From assembly GCA_947494565.1 (NCBI GenBank), contig CANLVG010000005.1:372001-436000 (forward strand): a stretch of DNA of 64,000 bases, read 5' to 3'. Both the position numbers and the translations under genes were made by a program. Origin of the DNA: an uncultured Flavobacteriaceae bacterium. GTDB lineage: Bacteria; Bacteroidota; Bacteroidia; Flavobacteriales; Flavobacteriaceae. Within the stretch, counting starts at the first letter, position 1. Each line of letters starts with the position of its first letter. Below the pieces are notes generated by a model. That model ran no database searches, was not told where the DNA came from, and saw only the letters and a program-made list of their open reading frames with translations. This document shows, one piece after another, positions 34,964 to 42,429 of this stretch.

Positions 34964-35728
34964 CTAACGTATATTTGAAACAAAGGCTGAAATAGAATCT
35001 ACGCCATTTGCTGTCAAATGTTGGATGAAAGCTGATCCGATAATGGCGCCCTTAGCTTGTTTGGTCGCTTGTTGAAAGGTTACGGCGTCTTTGATCCCAA
35101 AACCCACGATTTGAGGATTTTTTAAATTCATTTGACCGATGCGTTCAAAATAATCGGTTTGCGTATCCCCAAAACCTGATTTTGAACCGGTAACACTTGC
35201 CGAGCTTACCATATAGATAAAACCAGTAGAGGAGCTATCTATTTGCCTAACTCTTTCCGTACTGGTCTGAGGAGTAATTAAAAAGATATTGATAAGTCCA
35301 TATGCGGTGAAAATAGCTTCATAGTCCTTTTTGTACACATCTAGCGGCAAATCTGGCATAATGATTCCATCGATACCGATATCATGACATTTTTTACAGA
35401 ACGCCTCAACCCCATATTGTAACATCGGATTGAAATACCCCATTACGATCAAAGGAATGGAAACGCTTTTTCGAATGTTCTTCAATTGTTCGAACAGCCG
35501 TTCGGTGGTCATGCCATTTTTCAAGGCCACAGTAGAGCTCTCTTGAATGGTAGGGCCGTCTGCCAAGGGGTCACTGAAAGGCAAGCCTATCTCGATCATA
35601 TCGACACCACTACGTTCTAAATCTTGAATGATTTGAACCGTATCATCTAGTGCTGGGTAGCCTGCGGTGAAGTATATGGAAAGCAGTTTTTTATTTCCCT
35701 GTAGTTTTTGATTTATTCTGTTCATCAT
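34964..35728 (-). CDS. trpA: tryptophan synthase alpha chain
   Basis: A 254-residue TIM-barrel subunit that splits indole-3-glycerol phosphate to indole and glyceraldehyde 3-phosphate. The catalytic Glu lies in [20 protein letters not shown], whose Asp is the second catalytic residue, and GFGIKD near the C-terminus binds phosphate. It overlaps the trpB stop by 4 bases (ATGA) and is the last gene of the operon. Confidence 0.97.
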
Positions 35729-36909
35729 GCGAGCTTGAAATAGTCTATATATGTATTTAAATCCTTATCACCACGACCAGATAAGCTGATAACGATCACA
35801 TCATCGGCTTCGAATTTTTTATGTTGAAAAATGGCAAAGGCATGTCCGGTTTCAATGGCGGGAATGATACCTTCCAATTGTGATAGTTCCAAACCAGCAG
35901 TCATGGCTTCATCATCGGTGGCAGAATAGAATTCCGCTCGGCCAGATTGATATAAATGGGAATGCATTGGCCCAACTCCAGGATAATCCAATCCTGCAGA
36001 AATAGAATAAGGTTCTGTTATTTGTCCGTCCGTAGTTTGCATCAACATGGTCTTACAGCCGTGTATGATACCCACTTTACCCAGTGCGGAAGTTGCGGCA
36101 CTTTCCCCGGTCTCGATTCCTTTTCCGGCAGCCTCTACGGCGATGATCCCAACTTCTTCCTCATCTAGAAAATGGTAGTAGGTACCTGCCGCATTACTTC
36201 CCCCTCCAATACAAGCGACTACATAATCAGGGTTTTCCCGTCCTTCTTTTTCTTTCAATTGCCACTTGATTTCCTCCGAAATGACAGACTGGAAACGGGT
36301 TACCATATCGGGGTAGGGGTGCGGGCCGATGGCCGATCCAATGATATAATGGGTGTCTACCGGATTGTTGATCCAGTCGCGAATGGCCTCATTTGTAGCA
36401 TCTTTTAAGGTACGACTTCCAGATAAGGCAGGACGCACCTCGGCGCCCAACATTTTCATTCGCGCTACATTTGGGGCTTGACGAGCAATGTCTATTTCAC
36501 CCATATATACAACACATTCAATGCCCATTAAAGCACAAACCGTGGCCGTAGCCACCCCGTGTTGACCTGCACCCGTTTCTGCAATAATTCTGGTTTTTCC
36601 CAACTTCTTTGCCATCAAAATCTGTCCGATTGTGTTGTTGACTTTATGGGCCCCCGTGTGGTTTAGGTCCTCACGTTTCAAGTAAATTTTGCACCCATGT
36701 TTTTCGGAAAGGCGTTTGGCATAATAGAGTGGTGAAGGCCGCCCTACGTAATCTTTGAGAAGTTGATGGAATTCTTTTTGAAAAGAATCGGCATACATGA
36801 ACTCCAAATACTTTTGACGTAACTCTTCAACATTAGGGTAGAGCATTTCAGGAATAAAAGCCCCTCCGAACTCCCCGTAATATCCTCTTTCATCTGCGTG
36901 ATATCTCAT
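35725..36909 (-). CDS. trpB: tryptophan synthase beta chain
   Basis: A 394-residue pyridoxal-phosphate enzyme that joins indole and serine. The cofactor lysine is in [10 protein letters not shown], the phosphate loop in [10 protein letters not shown], and [13 protein letters not shown] is the indole/serine region. The N-terminal [20 protein letters not shown] is typical. It is coupled to trpA by a 4-base overlap and separated from trpF by 45 bases. Confidence 0.98.
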
Positions 36910-36954
36910 AATTTTCAGTATTCAGTAAATAATTATTGATGATCAGTTGCCTGT

Positions 36955-37650
36955 TTATCGTGCTTTAGTGTTATTTGTCTGTATTGCTTTTTGTAAGGTT
37001 TTCAGTTCTTCAATATTTTTTAATCCGGGTTCGGTCTCGAATTTGCTATTGACATCGATAGCGTGGCAAAACCGGGCCTCAGGACGTTTCATGAATTCCT
37101 TGATGGATATCATCTCCTCTAAACCTATACCGCCGCTCAAAAAATAAGGTTTGGTAGAGGGGTATCTTTGCAAAACTTCCCAATTGAAGGTGTATCCATT
37201 TCCTCCTGGAAGTTTTCCCTTGGTGTCGAACAGGTAGTAATCACAGACATCCTCAAAATGGTTTAATTTACCAAAGTCAAAGTCATCTTGTATCGAAAAC
37301 ACTTTTACGATTTTTAGTTGCGGTATCGCTTTCTTCAGTTCGTCACAAAATGCCGGTGTTTCACTTCCGTGCAATTGGGCGTACAATAATCCATAGGTTT
37401 TTGTTTTTTCGGCGATTTCCAAAATTGTGGCGTCGACAAAGACTCCGACTTTTTTTATGCTATGTGGAATAGAGGGCATTTCTCCCTCAAAATAACGTCG
37501 CGAAGGTTCCCAGAAGATAAAACCTAAGTAATCTGGCTTCAAGGCCGCTACTTCTCCAGTATTTTTATTCATGCCGCAAACCTTTAACTTCAGGGAAACA
37601 GTACCTTCGTTAAGGGACGTCGCGTCTTTATTTGAATAATAATAGTCCAC
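36955..37650 (-). CDS. trpF: phosphoribosylanthranilate isomerase
   Basis: A 231-residue TIM-barrel enzyme that converts phosphoribosylanthranilate to its ribulose form. The catalytic cysteine is in LKVCGM, the general acid Asp in GVFVDAT, and the phosphate-binding loops FLSGGIGLEE and AIDVNSKFE are intact. The start is uncertain: no ATG precedes LKVCGM. The only suitable codon is the GTG at 37650, two bases after the trpC stop, which adds a 22-residue leader (MDYYYSNKDATSLNEGTVSL) not usual for TrpF. Confidence 0.93.
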   Translation of the reverse strand: MDYYYSNKDATSLNEGTVSLKLKVCGMNKNTGEVAALKPDYLGFIFWEPSRRYFEGEMPSIPHSIKKVGVFVDATILEIAEKTKTYGLLYAQLHGSETPAFCDELKKAIPQLKIVKVFSIQDDFDFGKLNHFEDVCDYYLFDTKGKLPGGNGYTFNWEVLQRYPSTKPYFLSGGIGLEEMISIKEFMKRPEARFCHAIDVNSKFETEPGLKNIEELKTLQKAIQTNNTKAR

Positions 37651-37652
37651 CG

Positions 37653-38435
37653 TTAGTCTAAATTTTGAATGAACGCCGCTGCACTTTCCGCAGGGTTTTT
37701 GGTTTTCATGAAATTTTCTCCAATGAGAAACCCTTCGTATCCAAAGGGTTTTAAATCTTGAATGGCATTAATTGAACTGATACCGCTCTCCGAAACTTTG
37801 ACAAAATCCGTAGGAATCATATCCGCCAATGACTTACTGGTTTGCAAACTCACCTCGAAAGTTTTCAGATCACGGTTGTTCACCCCCAACATATCCAAAC
37901 TGGGCATTATCGATTTATGTAACTCGGCTTCATTATGCACTTCTAAGAGGACTTCTAAGTCCAAACTTTTGGCAAGCTCCGAAAACACCTTGATTTCTTC
38001 CCTTGACAATACTGCCGCAATGAGCAGAATGACATCGGCACCATGGGCTTTGGCCTCCACTAGTTGATACTCATTAACAATAAACTCTTTTCGTAGCAAG
38101 GGAATATTCACAGCCGCCCTGGCCAGCACTAAATCTTCTAATGAACCTCCAAAGTATTTGATATCGGTCAGCACGCTCATACCACAAACACCTGCCTTTT
38201 GATATCCTTTAGCGACCTGAGCCACGTTAGTAAGCTGACTGATGGTTCCTTTTGAGGGGGAACGTCTTTTGTGCTCGGCAATAATTCCGGAAGTGCTATT
38301 TCGTAATGCTTTTACCAAAGAATGGGTGTTCCTTTCAAATAAAACGGAAGCCTCCAATTGCTTTGTTGGAATAATCGATTTTTTCAACGCGACCTCTTTG
38401 CGTTTGTCCGCTATGATTTTATCTAAAATGTTCAT
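37653..38435 (-). CDS. trpC: indole-3-glycerol phosphate synthase
   Basis: A 260-residue TIM-barrel enzyme closing the indole ring. Diagnostic are IIAEHKRRSPSKGTI (catalytic Lys), PLLRKEFIVNEYQ, GVNNRDLKTFEV and VSESGIS. It is a separate protein from TrpF, unlike the fused form of E. coli. It lies 35 bases after trpD and 2 bases before the trpF start. Confidence 0.97.
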   Translation of the reverse strand: MNILDKIIADKRKEVALKKSIIPTKQLEASVLFERNTHSLVKALRNSTSGIIAEHKRRSPSKGTISQLTNVAQVAKGYQKAGVCGMSVLTDIKYFGGSLEDLVLARAAVNIPLLRKEFIVNEYQLVEAKAHGADVILLIAAVLSREEIKVFSELAKSLDLEVLLEVHNEAELHKSIMPSLDMLGVNNRDLKTFEVSLQTSKSLADMIPTDFVKVSESGISSINAIQDLKPFGYEGFLIGENFMKTKNPAESAAAFIQNLD

Positions 38436-38470
38436 TTCTCTACTTTACGCACCTTTTTAGTATAGGGCAA

Positions 38471-39463
38471 TCAGTTACTCAACTCTTGTAATTTCCGCAA
38501 GGCTTTTAACCCGCTTCCGTTCAACAAAGATTCCTTTGCTTTTTCGAACCCTTCTTTCACGCTTATATTTTCGACCGTTGCAATGGCGACACCGGCATTG
38601 GCGCAGACAACATTGTTCTGGGCTTCGGTACCTTTCGCCTGCAAAACATCCAGAAATATCTGGGCCGATCCTTCAATGCTCTCACCCCCTATAATATCGA
38701 TTTGTCGAATGGGGGAAATCCCAAAATCGGCCGGGGTCAACATGCCTTCCGATTGGTTTGAAATGGTTTTTGTATTTCCGGTCAGAGAGATTTCGTCATA
38801 ACCATCCAAGGCATGCAGTACGGTAAAATTCTTGTCGGTATTTTGATAGAGGTATCCGTACATACGGGCCAGTTCCAAGTTGAAAACCCCTACCATTTGA
38901 TTCTTTGGAAAGGCAGGATTCACCATAGGTCCCAACATATTGAAAAAGGTTTTTACGCCAAGCTCCCTTCGAATGGGGGCGACATTTTTCATGGCAGGAT
39001 GAAAGAGAGGGGCGTGCAAAACGCAAATTCCGGCTTCGTCGATGGATTTCTCTAAGAAGTCCGCCTCATTACTGAATTTGATACCCAAAAACTCCATCAC
39101 GTTGCTACTTCCACATTTTGAGGAAACCCCATAATTGCCGTGTTTGGTCACTTTCACTCCGGCCCCTGCCGTTACAAAGGATGCCAAGGTTGAAATATTG
39201 AAGGTGTCTTTTCCGTCACCTCCCGTACCGCAAAGGTCTATGGGATTATAGGCGGAAAGATCAACGGCTAAGCACAGTTCTAAAAGCGCATCGCGGAAAC
39301 CCTCTAATTCTTCTATGGTAATACTGCGCATCATATAAACGGTCAAGAAGGCCGCAATTTGACTGGTGTTGTATTCGCCTTTGGCAATATTCACCAAAAT
39401 TTGTTTCGCATCTTCTTTCGAGAGGATGTCGTGATTGATCAGTTTGTTGAGTGTTTCTTTCAT
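38471..39463 (-). CDS. trpD: anthranilate phosphoribosyltransferase
   Basis: A 330-residue enzyme that adds phosphoribose from PRPP to anthranilate. The PRPP loop is in DLCGTGGDGKDTFNIST, with VTKHGNYGVSSKCGSSNVME and the following anthranilate-binding region. I chose the ATG at 39463 (MKETLNKLINHDILSKEDAK), ten codons inside the longest frame. TrpD is not fused to TrpG here. The gap to trpG is 88 bases. Confidence 0.97.
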   Translation of the reverse strand: MKETLNKLINHDILSKEDAKQILVNIAKGEYNTSQIAAFLTVYMMRSITIEELEGFRDALLELCLAVDLSAYNPIDLCGTGGDGKDTFNISTLASFVTAGAGVKVTKHGNYGVSSKCGSSNVMEFLGIKFSNEADFLEKSIDEAGICVLHAPLFHPAMKNVAPIRRELGVKTFFNMLGPMVNPAFPKNQMVGVFNLELARMYGYLYQNTDKNFTVLHALDGYDEISLTGNTKTISNQSEGMLTPADFGISPIRQIDIIGGESIEGSAQIFLDVLQAKGTEAQNNVVCANAGVAIATVENISVKEGFEKAKESLLNGSGLKALRKLQELSN

Positions 39464-39551
39464 CACTAGAAATTTTATGTTCCATTCTTGCAATGGAAAA
39501 TGCCTTTATCTTACAGGAAGACCCTTGCCTATAATTGAGCACCAAATCAAT

Positions 39552-40115
39552 TTAATTCTTCAACCAATTCTCCAGAATCTTTTTTCCTTCAGGTGTTAAA
39601 ACCGATTCTGGGTGAAATTGAACTGCACACACGTCATATTCTTTATGTCGCAAAGACATGACCTGTCCGTTTTTATCAAAAGAAGTCGCCTCAAGCATTT
39701 CAGGTAGTTCTGGATGAACCACCCATGAGTGGTACCGACCGACCTCGATTTCCTTAGGTATTCCTTCAAATAATTTATCTTCTTTCGCAATCGTTATTTT
39801 TGTGGCGATGCCATGATATACCTCATCCAAATTAATCAGTGAGCCACCAAATACCTCTGCTATGGCCTGTTGCCCAAGGCATACACCGAATATACTCTTC
39901 CGAGGCGCATATTTGTTAATAATCGCCTTCAAGAGCCCCGCTTCCTCAGGTATTCCTGGTCCTGGCGAGAGTACGATTTTATCAAATGCATCGACTTCAT
40001 CAAGGGTTAGTTGGTCATTGCGTTTCACGATAACTTCACAATCCAGATCTTCGAGATAATGCACGAGATTGTAGGTAAAACTATCGTAATTGTCTATAAC
40101 AAGTATCTTCTTCAT
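39552..40115 (-). CDS. trpG: anthranilate synthase glutamine amidotransferase subunit
   Basis: A 187-residue class I glutamine amidotransferase delivering ammonia to TrpE. The catalytic cysteine is in GVCLGQQAIAEVFGG, the His-Glu pair in AVQFHPESVLT, and ILVIDNYDSFTYNLVHYL is the typical start. It begins one base after the trpE stop. As in many bacteria it might also serve 4-amino-4-deoxychorismate synthase. Confidence 0.96.
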   Translation of the reverse strand: MKKILVIDNYDSFTYNLVHYLEDLDCEVIVKRNDQLTLDEVDAFDKIVLSPGPGIPEEAGLLKAIINKYAPRKSIFGVCLGQQAIAEVFGGSLINLDEVYHGIATKITIAKEDKLFEGIPKEIEVGRYHSWVVHPELPEMLEATSFDKNGQVMSLRHKEYDVCAVQFHPESVLTPEGKKILENWLKN

Positions 40116-40116
40116 C

Positions 40117-41514
40117 TTAAATCGTTTCTGCAATTTCAAGAGCTTTGGTCAATGCCCCCAGTTTGTTATAGGTCTCCTGCAATTCGTCTTCGGCATTTGA
40201 TGCGGCCACCAGACCTGCGCCAGCTTGGTAATGGAGCTCATGGTTTTTGCTCAGAAAAGTTCGAATCATTATCGCATGATTGAAATTTCCACTAAAATCC
40301 ATAAAGCCGATTGCGCCACCATAATATCCACGACTTGTTTTTTCATACTTTTCGATTAGTTGCATTGCCATATGCTTAGGTGCTCCGCTCAACGTTCCTG
40401 CCGGAAATGTATCCGCGACCACCTTCATCGTTGCAATATCCTTTTTCTTTTTGCCGGTCACTTTTGACACTAAGTGAATCACATGAGAGAAGAATTGTAC
40501 TTCGCGATAGTTGGCCACTTCTACCATATTGCCATTTCGGCTCAGATCGTTTCTGGCTAGATCGACCAACATCACATGTTCACTATTTTCCTTATCGTCT
40601 TCGGTAAGTTGTTTGGCTAGAATAGCATCTTGTTCATCATTACCGGTGCGCTTAAAAGTTCCGGCGATAGGGTGAATTTCCGCCTTACCGTTTTGAACGA
40701 TCAGTTGTGCCTCGGGAGAACTTCCAAATATTTTAAAATCCCCGTAATCAAAATAGAATAGATAAGGTGAAGGGTTCACCGAGCGCAGGGCTCTGTATAC
40801 GTTGAATTCATCTCCTTTGAAACCTTGTGAGAATCGTCGCGATAAAACCAATTGAAACACGTCGCCACGCTGACAATGCTTTTTGGCCAATTCCACATGC
40901 TCTTTGTATTCTTCATCCCTTAAGTTGGAGGATACTGTTCCGTCCATGGTAAAATTGTAGGACGCAAAGTTCTTGACATTTAGAATCTGTTCGATTTCCG
41001 GAATATTGTTTTCCGATTCAAAGCAATGTGCAAAGATATAGGCTTCGTTCTTGAAGTGATTGATGGCAATGATGTTCTGGTACACCGCATAATAGATATC
41101 CGGAATTTGAATGGTACCCTCCTTTTTTTCAAGCGCCACGCTTTCATAATACCGAACCGCATCATAGGCCATATAGCCAAATAGCCCATTATTTATGAAC
41201 TTAAAATCACTTTTTCCTGTATCAAAACGTTGACTGAAATCATGAATCACTTGTACCACGTCGGTTTGCGGGTCGATCTTTATTTCGTCTGACGAACCAT
41301 CGGGAAACTGTCGGGATATTATCTCATTCTCCACCTTAAAAGAGGCAATGGGATTACAGCAGATATACGAAAAACTGTTATCGTTGGCATGGTAGTCACT
41401 ACTTTCCAAAAGGATGCTATTCGGAAATCGATCTCTAATCTTCAGATAGACACTTACAGGAGTGATGGTGTCCGCTAATATTTTTCGGTAATGTGATTGT
41501 AATTTGTATTTCAT
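40117..41514 (-). CDS. trpE: anthranilate synthase component I
   Basis: A 465-residue chorismate-utilising enzyme, first gene of the operon. The chorismate-binding core shows FQLVLSRRFSQGF, FGSSPEAQLIV, HPIAGTFKRTG, VMLVDLARNDLSRNG and TFPAGTLSGAPKHMAMQLIE. The N-terminal half would carry the tryptophan feedback site; the region with LLESSDYHANDNSFSYI matches the LLES motif of this site. The ATG lies 10 bases after the attenuator hairpin's T run. Confidence 0.97.
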   Translation of the reverse strand: MKYKLQSHYRKILADTITPVSVYLKIRDRFPNSILLESSDYHANDNSFSYICCNPIASFKVENEIISRQFPDGSSDEIKIDPQTDVVQVIHDFSQRFDTGKSDFKFINNGLFGYMAYDAVRYYESVALEKKEGTIQIPDIYYAVYQNIIAINHFKNEAYIFAHCFESENNIPEIEQILNVKNFASYNFTMDGTVSSNLRDEEYKEHVELAKKHCQRGDVFQLVLSRRFSQGFKGDEFNVYRALRSVNPSPYLFYFDYGDFKIFGSSPEAQLIVQNGKAEIHPIAGTFKRTGNDEQDAILAKQLTEDDKENSEHVMLVDLARNDLSRNGNMVEVANYREVQFFSHVIHLVSKVTGKKKKDIATMKVVADTFPAGTLSGAPKHMAMQLIEKYEKTSRGYYGGAIGFMDFSGNFNHAIMIRTFLSKNHELHYQAGAGLVAASNAEDELQETYNKLGALTKALEIAETI

Positions 41515-41523
41515 CTGATGCTA

Positions 41524-41559
41524 TAAAAAGAGTAAGGCTTGTCGTGATGACAAGCCTTA
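41524..41559 (-). terminator. trp attenuator (terminator hairpin before trpE)
   Basis: Perfect 10-11 base-pair stem on the minus strand, AAGGCTTGTC (41558-41549) with GACAAGCCTT (41543-41534), loop of five, followed by a CTTTTT run at 41531-41526. It lies between the leader peptide and trpE. Upstream, the Trp-codon stretch (minus strand of 41612-41620) can pair with the segment at 41572-41580 (nine pairs including wobbles), giving an alternative fold as expected for attenuation. Confidence 0.85.
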
Positions 41560-41586
41560 TATAGTTTTACTACAATGATGCTTAGC

Positions 41587-41643
41587 TCACGATAACTTTC
41601 GAGAGTTAGACCACCACCATGTATTATTTCGTAATTCAATCAT
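41587..41643 (-). CDS. trpL: trp operon leader peptide
   Basis: An 18-residue frame, MIELRNNTWWWSNSRKLS, with three consecutive Trp codons (TGG TGG TGG). It lies 28 bases upstream of a terminator hairpin that precedes trpE, and directly behind a strong promoter. A run of Trp codons in a peptide this short, in this position, is the classic mark of a tryptophan attenuation leader: ribosomes stalling at the codons when Trp-tRNA is scarce would free the downstream segment and prevent termination. Its ATG is only about 7 bases from the end of the -7 box, so translation is probably leaderless. Confidence 0.88.
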   Translation of the reverse strand: MIELRNNTWWWSNSRKLS

Positions 41644-41650
41644 TATGTGT

Positions 41651-41682
41651 CAAATATAGAAATCATTTTTTTTGCCTACAAA
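41651..41682 (-). promoter_or_regulatory. trp operon promoter
   Basis: TTTG (minus strand of 41679-41682), a 20-base spacer, and TATATTTG (minus strand of 41651-41658), a full Bacteroidota consensus promoter. The expected transcription start is within a few bases of the leader-peptide ATG. Confidence 0.75.
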
Positions 41683-41793: not shown

Positions 41794-41825
41794 AAAAAAC
41801 CCCGCGCTTCAGATGAAACACGGGG
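41794..41825 (-). terminator. terminator of the MarR-YceI unit
   Basis: On the minus strand CCCCGTG pairs with CGCGGGG (one wobble) followed by TTTTTT, 26 bases after the YceI stop. A strong GC stem plus T run. Confidence 0.85.
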
Positions 41826-41850
41826 CCGCTTAACTGTGAGGTCAAGTCTA

Positions 41851-42429
41851 CTAAAATTCTAAATCCACAACAAGATCGAACTCATCATAGATAGTTTTGT
41901 CTCCAAGGTTTTCAAAGAAACTACCAGAACCATACTTGACATCGTATTCTGCTCTGTCAACTTTCAAAGTGGCGGTCGCTTTACTTCCATATACGGATAC
42001 ATCAAAGGTAATAGGTTTAGTAATACCTTTTATAGTCAGGTCTCCGGTAACCTCGTACGAGTTCTTTCCAGAAGCCTTCACATTGGTGAAAACCAATTTG
42101 GAAGTTGGGTGATTGGCAACCCCGAAGAAATCGTCAGATTTCAGATGCCCCTCCAGCTTTCCTTTGTATTCACCTTCTAGATCGGTAGAAATCAAGGTAG
42201 GCATGTCGACCACGAATTCCCCACCGGTCAATTTATCGCCATCAAACAGCAATGCGCCCGATTTCAAATCGACGGTACCAGTATGGGATCCGGTAACTTT
42301 GTACGCCTTCCACGTCACTTTGCTTGTTTCAGAATTTACTTCCTTTTTTTCACCCTCAACAGGTGTAGTTGCCGTTGCTGTTGCTCCGAATACTATAGCT
42401 AATGCTAAACTTAAAACTGTCTTTTTCAT
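41851..42429 (-). CDS. YceI family periplasmic lipid-binding protein
   Basis: A 192-residue exported protein with a signal peptide (MKKTVLSLALAIVFGATATA) and a YceI lipocalin-like barrel. Typical parts are SKVTWKAYKVTGSHTGTVDL at the first strand, GGEFVVDMPTLISTD and LKSDDFFGVANHPTSKLVFT. YceI proteins bind isoprenoid-like lipids in the periplasm. It follows a MarR regulator by 37 bases and ends in a strong terminator, so it is the likely main target of that regulator. Confidence 0.92.
   Translation of the reverse strand: MKKTVLSLALAIVFGATATATTPVEGEKKEVNSETSKVTWKAYKVTGSHTGTVDLKSGALLFDGDKLTGGEFVVDMPTLISTDLEGEYKGKLEGHLKSDDFFGVANHPTSKLVFTNVKASGKNSYEVTGDLTIKGITKPITFDVSVYGSKATATLKVDRAEYDVKYGSGSFFENLGDKTIYDEFDLVVDLEF

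Follow-up and report, generated by a model that had tools for sequence, protein, structure and literature searches.

The window, that is, the whole 64,000-nt stretch of DNA analysed here, carries 5′ of trpE an element that we identify with high confidence as a ribosome-mediated transcription attenuator of the trp genes and as a close, sub-threshold match to the Rfam family RF01692. A preliminary description of this DNA had proposed tryptophan attenuation by ribosome stalling. The parts of the element, their order, spacing, conservation and covariation, as read from the sequence, argue for that proposal, as does a switch that appears in folding models.

Organization of the trpE leader region

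The trp cluster has the order trpEGDCFBA and lies entirely on the minus strand, from 41514 down to 34964, with gene names read from the translations. trpE (40117..41514, start 41514) is the first gene of the controlled cluster and is followed by trpG, trpD, trpC, trpF, trpB and trpA, in that order (34964..40139). A promoter, an 18-codon frame with three consecutive Trp codons and a terminator, proposed earlier to stand in series 5′ of trpE, were all located there, on the minus strand. The promoter is of the Bacteroidetes type and comprises a −33-like element, TTTG (41679..41682), and, after a 20-nt spacer, a −7 box of the TAnnTTTG type, TATATTTG (41651..41658). The leader frame, MIELRNNTWWWSNSRKLS plus a TGA stop (41587..41643, ATG at 41643), has its three Trp codons, the proposed sensor, at codons 9–11 (41611..41619) and ends 72 nt 5′ of trpE. 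The terminator hairpin (41533..41559), previously put at 10–11 bp with a T run, has 11 pairs, five of them G–C, and a loop of five bases (AUCAC); its stem lies 18 nt 5′ of trpE and is followed by a U-rich tail, CTCTTTTTAT (41523..41532). A terminator scan of 1.2 kb on both strands returned three sites against 0.7 expected from shuffles, two of which are the trpE-leader hairpin itself, one per strand. A further terminator-like hairpin on the minus strand (41798..41827), 3′ of the upstream frame at 41851–42429, would insulate the trp transcript from that frame.

The −7 box recurs in front of related leaders. After removal of duplicate leader sequences, 204 of 229 distinct leaders had a TAnnTTTG box at most 45 nt 5′ of the leader ATG, against 8 of 229 control windows. 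The gap between box and AUG was 4–8 nt in 111 leaders, 9–13 in 22, 14–22 in 66 and 28–33 in 5, and the remaining 25 had no box; in the window it is 7 nt. Mapping of 5′ ends in F. psychrophilum, as given in the available text of PMC9723704, places the box at −12 to −5, so the window leader is predicted to begin with 2–3 untranslated bases. The preliminary description had likewise put the leader ATG almost at the predicted transcript start, which fits the published spacing from −7 box to start and the arrangement seen in many relatives. Judged from the gaps, an AUG near the 5′ end appears to be frequent among these leaders, most of those from the window's genus included, yet far from universal. 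Transcripts that begin this near to the start codon are few in these bacteria: the same text counts 5.5% of F. psychrophilum transcripts as leaderless, and more than 10 nt separate transcript start and start codon in 87% of cases reported for F. johnsoniae, in the part of that work available. RNA-seq and reporter plasmids exist for F. johnsoniae, according to the available text of PMC6847099. The layout with AUG close to the box also occurs before hisG and ilvD of the window's own genome. A leader AUG at or within a few bases of the 5′ end might be a selected trait, with leaderless-like initiation at the 5′ end, independent of a Shine–Dalgarno site, loading the sensing ribosome early and tightening the coupling for attenuation; we offer this tentatively and consider it rather doubtful.

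The hisG and ilvD leaders have features of their own. Upstream of hisG (L290, on C11), a His leader, MKNKNTHHHLSTGCQAR, starts 7 nt past a TACTTTTA box and is followed by a terminator; with a ribosome at the last His codon, modelling gives an antiterminator-like fold of −17.0 kcal/mol. Upstream of ilvD (L291, reverse strand of C1), a branched-chain leader, MKINKVVVNVLLIVP, starts 5 nt past TATCATTG and precedes a strong terminator, 3′ of which lies a TATATTTG box that could bypass the terminator.

Trp-codon leaders among relatives

TrpE relatives were found in 14 of 14 genus and 148 of 149 family genomes (E 1e-3), where some of the weaker matches are distant homologues and not trpE, in 53 of 98 order and 21 of 60 class genomes (E 1e-100), and in 52 of 61 phylum genomes (E 1e-60). 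Upstream DNA came from part of the matched genomes, as the loci returned plus 80 further stretches. Named contigs with TrpE were represented by the best 80 of 585, the closest among these 80 being Maribacter and other Flavobacteriaceae. Genome loci and named contigs partly overlap (L004 and L059 cover one and the same piece of a contig), and the counts below are therefore of loci, not of independent species.

To count as a leader, a frame had to start with ATG, span no more than 40 codons, contain consecutive Trp codons and lie within 350 nt of trpE, at loci with at least 350 nt of upstream DNA. Leaders with WWW or more were present at 145 of 186 genome loci and 71 of 80 named-contig loci; with WW or more, the counts rose to 166 of 186 and 72 of 80. 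Chance produced no WWW leader in 5,340 dinucleotide shuffles or on 267 reverse strands, and WW-or-more leaders in 32 shuffles and on two reverse strands; leaders with WW only are less certain than those with WWW because of these 32. Extending the search to 700 nt gave an in-frame WW-or-more leader at 251 of 270 loci, with a terminator detected by the scan in 239 of those 251. (The second copy of the window locus, L139, is among the 267 but not the 270.) The preliminary description had named conservation of the Trp codons and the hairpin in relatives as the check on its reading, and both are kept. Among the 19 loci without a leader by this rule, three have too little upstream DNA (L051, L194 and L198), two have WWW but no in-frame ATG (L221 and L245) and three have interrupted Trp codons (L160, L192 and L197); in the other 11, no Trp-codon leader was seen within 700 nt.

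Trp leaders are present in loci from the window's family, order, class and phylum. Four loci that share only the phylum with the window (L156, L163, L164 and L165) have longer leaders of a different type before trpE, for example MRHVAYHSAHYYGWWWFTPAVVGRARA, and WWW leaders thus exist outside the window's class. Two 0.6-Mb genomes of the same order (L281 and L282) have trpE with no Trp-codon leader found upstream, as though the control had been lost in reduced genomes.

Close to the window, the position of the sensor varies little. A leader was picked at 120 of 121 close loci. Its Trp run begins at codon 9 in 112 of them and at codon 8 in 6; the remaining two (L042 and L045) are wrong frames chosen by the automatic picker. 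For the analyses of close loci, L136 (WW only) and L051 (contig cut) were left out, and removal of duplicates gave 109 loci. The terminator scan overlooked L045, L120 and L138 of 119 close loci, in whose DNA the hairpin is visible.

At eight loci (L088, L090, L094, L114, L118, L132, L006 and L126), an insert of 332–467 nt separates terminator and trpE, with a remnant in L003. It holds a small frame, YVYIISNKK..GTIYIGYTND, apparently broken in L118, L132 and L003, which we take to be GIY-YIG-like. The overall range of inserts between terminator and trpE in some relatives is 264–467 nt.

These distances bear on the idea that the leader frame serves solely to enhance translation of trpE or to allow ribosomes to reinitiate there. 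For short leader frames of many phyla, Bacteroidetes included, such reinitiation is proposed in the available text of PMC4833913; however, the Bacteroidetes peak given there is 11–14 nt against 72 nt from the window's leader stop to trpE, and a terminator, together with the insert of 264–467 nt in some relatives, stands in between. We find this account barely conceivable.

Control could also lie elsewhere, with the leader incidental. In other bacteria, TrpR, TRAP and T-box systems control trp genes. Precedent of that kind is all that speaks for a TrpR-like repressor, a TRAP-like RNA-binding protein or a T-box acting on the window's cluster. The genome has no match to TrpR (PF01371), which was found in 2 of 14 named control genomes (E. 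coli and B. subtilis), and none to TRAP (PF02081), found in 1 of the 14 (B. subtilis); no T-box reached the gathering score within the window. Such control is extremely improbable here, and a regulator of another, unfamiliar kind could conceivably act on the trp genes.

Competing RNA structures and ribosome position

In a fold of the window from leader ATG to terminator, the Trp codons pair with the linker in a hairpin (1:2; 41568..41623, minus strand) of −15.1 kcal/mol that encloses segment 2, and the RF01692 alignment has the same pairing of Trp codons with linker. The preliminary description had let the Trp-codon RNA pair with a stretch just before the terminator; fold and alignment agree with it on the pairing, but its role would be that of a protector and not of an antiterminator. 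The antiterminator, which that description did not name, is 2:3. In it, segment 2 (UCGUGA, 41592–41587), which overlaps the last codon and the stop of the leader, pairs with UCACGA (41547–41542), drawn from the terminator loop and the adjoining bases of its 3′ arm and contained in segment 3, the apical half of the terminator (GCUUGUCAUCACGA, 41542..41555, minus strand). Extended by UAAGC:GCUUG with the 5′ arm, this antiterminator reaches −15.9 kcal/mol while the 3′ arm is still incomplete. With a ribosome at the Trp codons of the window, the 2:3 pair probability is 0.83–1.0.

Segment 2 is kept as RNA and not as peptide. The word CGUGA occurs in 109 of 109 deduplicated close WWW loci, preceded by U in 101, and lies 19 nt after the last Trp codon in 100 and 20 nt in 9, that is, in two reading frames. 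Where the leader frame ends early (L035 and L137), the word remains, outside the frame. It is this frame-independent spacing, together with retention beyond early stops, that argues for the RNA.

In TnaC, a peptide in the ribosome tunnel senses free tryptophan, and the leader peptide could do the same in place of a ribosome awaiting charged tRNA-Trp. An Asn before and an Asn and an Arg after the Trp run do recur in many leader peptides; codons 13–15 lie within the 1:2 structure, though, and RNA pairing can explain their conservation. Residues 2–6 show almost no constraint, and the stretch after the Trp run differs from clade to clade (NNLRQTS, SFRNLHS and SSQNENVVR). The leaders of L220, L224 and L035 stop two to four codons past the run, and a sensor of starvation would require just such a series of Trp codons. 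We consider tunnel sensing very improbable.

Covariation was scored on an alignment of 36 out of 39 reference loci (L256, L258 and L264 were left out, and L245 has no terminator entry). The terminator had 10 cells with changes in both partners, where shuffles gave 2.6. For 2:3, 91.3% of cells were paired, compared with 90.2% in shuffles and at most 58.4% when slid, and 3 cells changed on both sides; 2:3 covariation on this alignment is weak because the pairing barely varies within the family. The five CGUGA pairs are kept in 109, 109, 109, 109 and 108 of the 109 close loci, and so near-invariant they say little on covariation. In more distant leaders, paired changes between segment 2 and the apex were noted by eye, in L254 (UGUCGCAAU/AUUGCGACA), L262 (UCGCGA/UCGCGA), L275 (GCGAG/CUCGC), L267 (GGAUUCAG/CUGAAUCC) and L193 (UGAACAG/CUGUUCA). 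Across 71 distinct apices, pairing with their own segment 2 scored 15.3, against 12.1 with swapped partners (signed-rank P = 1.5e-9, not corrected for kinship), and 38 apices were at or below 5% of shuffles. The 33 that missed this level include 10 from the window's family, the window's own among them (0.055, narrowly), and 8 from family f2 of the same order (L149, L182 and L185–L190), in which segment 2–apex pairing as sought scores no better than chance. On sequence grounds, terminator and mutually exclusive antiterminator are both conserved, with 2:3 weak within the family alone.

We then folded 229 distinct leaders codon by codon, using the RNA free of the ribosome (from 14 nt past the start of the A-site codon) up to the terminator apex. 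The mean antiterminator probability was 0.95 when the last Trp codon was in the A-site and 0.91–0.96 from three codons before that codon to three after it, then fell to 0.26 four codons past it and to 0.10 at the stop. Across the same walk, the window went from 0.997–1.0 down to 0.003. In these models, ribosome position decides the structure, with a sharp switch 3–5 codons beyond the last Trp codon. Footprints of 11–16 nt moved the drop by about one codon (77 leaders). Shuffling the linkers of these 77 leaders lowered the antiterminator probability at the last Trp codon from 0.94 to 0.47, and values above 0.9 there were found in 71 of 77 leaders against 74 of 385 linker shuffles.

With no ribosome, the antiterminator probability is 0.61 on average (229 leaders) and 0.993 in the window. 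The model thus does not predict, at equilibrium, that an untranslated leader would terminate, and the protector role of 1:2 consequently rests on the order of folding. Once the window's terminator is complete, the terminator fold wins in each state tried; the switch must therefore be kinetic. The E. coli trp attenuator, which works through alternative hairpins, is accepted as a kinetic switch.

From these elements we infer where transcription starts, that the leader is translated, that the ribosome stalls and how the genes respond to tryptophan, as follows. RNA polymerase would start a few bases before the leader AUG, at which a ribosome would start without a Shine–Dalgarno site. When charged tRNA-Trp is scarce, the ribosome would stall at codons 9–11, leaving segment 2 (UCGUGA) free to pair with the apical part of the emerging terminator (GCUUG...UCACGA); with segment 2 paired, the terminator could not nucleate and trpEGDCFBA would be transcribed. 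When charged tRNA-Trp is available, the ribosome would reach the UGA, itself within segment 2, and cover that segment, and the terminator would form 18 nt 5′ of trpE.

The terminator arms are conserved beyond what a plain terminator needs: GGCUUGUC/GACAAGCC are almost invariant in the 109 loci, except at one U/C position. A released leader RNA that additionally acts in trans would account for this, and the Sinorhizobium trp leader RNA reportedly acts in trans. The Sinorhizobium trp leader peptide does so as well, according to the available text of PMC7298713. However, the same bases serve 2:3, 3:4 and the UAAGC:GCUUG extension of the antiterminator, and we regard an additional role in trans as very improbable. 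The core hairpin pattern has a single copy in the window's genome, which speaks neither for nor against a trans target. A terminator shared by several operons of the genome had been considered as well and was rejected, since the core pattern occurs once.

Relation to described attenuators

As expected of ribosome-mediated attenuation, the leader holds a short frame that includes codons for the amino acid under control. It resembles the E. coli trp attenuator (RF00513, Trp_leader) in its short Trp-codon frame and the U-rich terminator before trpE, and differs from it in its three Trp codons, in the AUG near the predicted 5′ end and in a stop inside segment 2. In a search with RF00513, the window was not listed at E values up to 10, whereas the E. 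coli trpL control scored 93.1 bits.

Leaderless short-frame attenuators of mycobacteria, with a polycysteine frame, are said to have been described by Canestrari and colleagues in 2020. They share with the window a regulatory frame that begins at the transcript's 5′ end or close to it, but the frame is polycysteine and the phylum different.

The nearest described relative is RF01692 (Bacteroid-trp), a leader RNA family of this phylum (Weinberg et al. 2010, available text of PMC2864571). An undescribed leader family had been considered, the default Rfam scan being blank at the leader, and was dropped when a permissive scan gave RF01692. The match is full-length (41663–41549, minus strand) at 41.2 bits and E 8e-4, below the gathering score of 49 bits, and the window is accordingly not a formal member. 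Both lie 5′ of trpE and have a Trp-codon frame, pairing of Trp codons with the linker and the terminator 5′ arm AAGGCUUGUC. In the window's match, that pairing and AAGGCUUGUC at the 3′ end are present, with six positions marked non-standard, and the element precedes trp genes in a bacterium of the phylum Bacteroidetes. In location, pairing and kinship, the leader is of the same kind as RF01692. Among 20 loci given to the model (19 trpE loci and the hisG locus L290), eight reached the gathering score, all 5′ of trpE; L004, from the same genus, was not among them. The model ends at the terminator 5′ arm and so has neither the whole terminator nor the 2:3 antiterminator, both of which the window has. 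With this cut-off and a model ending before the terminator loop, default annotation will miss such leaders: the cut-off passes over close relatives of the family's own members, and the model lacks the half that switches.

The preliminary description had found a complete attenuator in a flavobacterium notable. That view is understandable but out of date: RF01692 was catalogued for the phylum in 2010, nearly all family loci sampled here have leaders, and leader-peptide attenuation has been reported in Flavobacterium (available text of PMC9723704). In the available part of Naville and Gautheret 2010 (PMC2965389), the authors were aware of no leader-peptide system shown outside Proteobacteria and Actinobacteria before theirs. 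A comparative survey of attenuation, Lopatovskaya et al. 2010, is cited in the available text of PMC4833913. For F. psychrophilum, of the same bacterial family as the window, the available text of PMC9723704 gives strong clues for leader-peptide attenuation 5′ of amino-acid operons; its main text names the hisG and pheA elements as conserved, and 'trp' is absent from that main text. An experimental test of a Bacteroidetes trp leader was not among the literature matches listed, most subscription journals lying outside the search. The present analysis adds the antiterminator and its covariation, a spacing that does not depend on the reading frame, the distribution among relatives and the predicted near-5′ AUG.

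Attenuation by stalling requires close coupling of transcription and translation. The trp leader, conserved and sharply tuned, suggests that in Bacteroidota such coupling operates on leaders that lack Shine–Dalgarno sites, and it is a ready reporter for testing coupling in this phylum.
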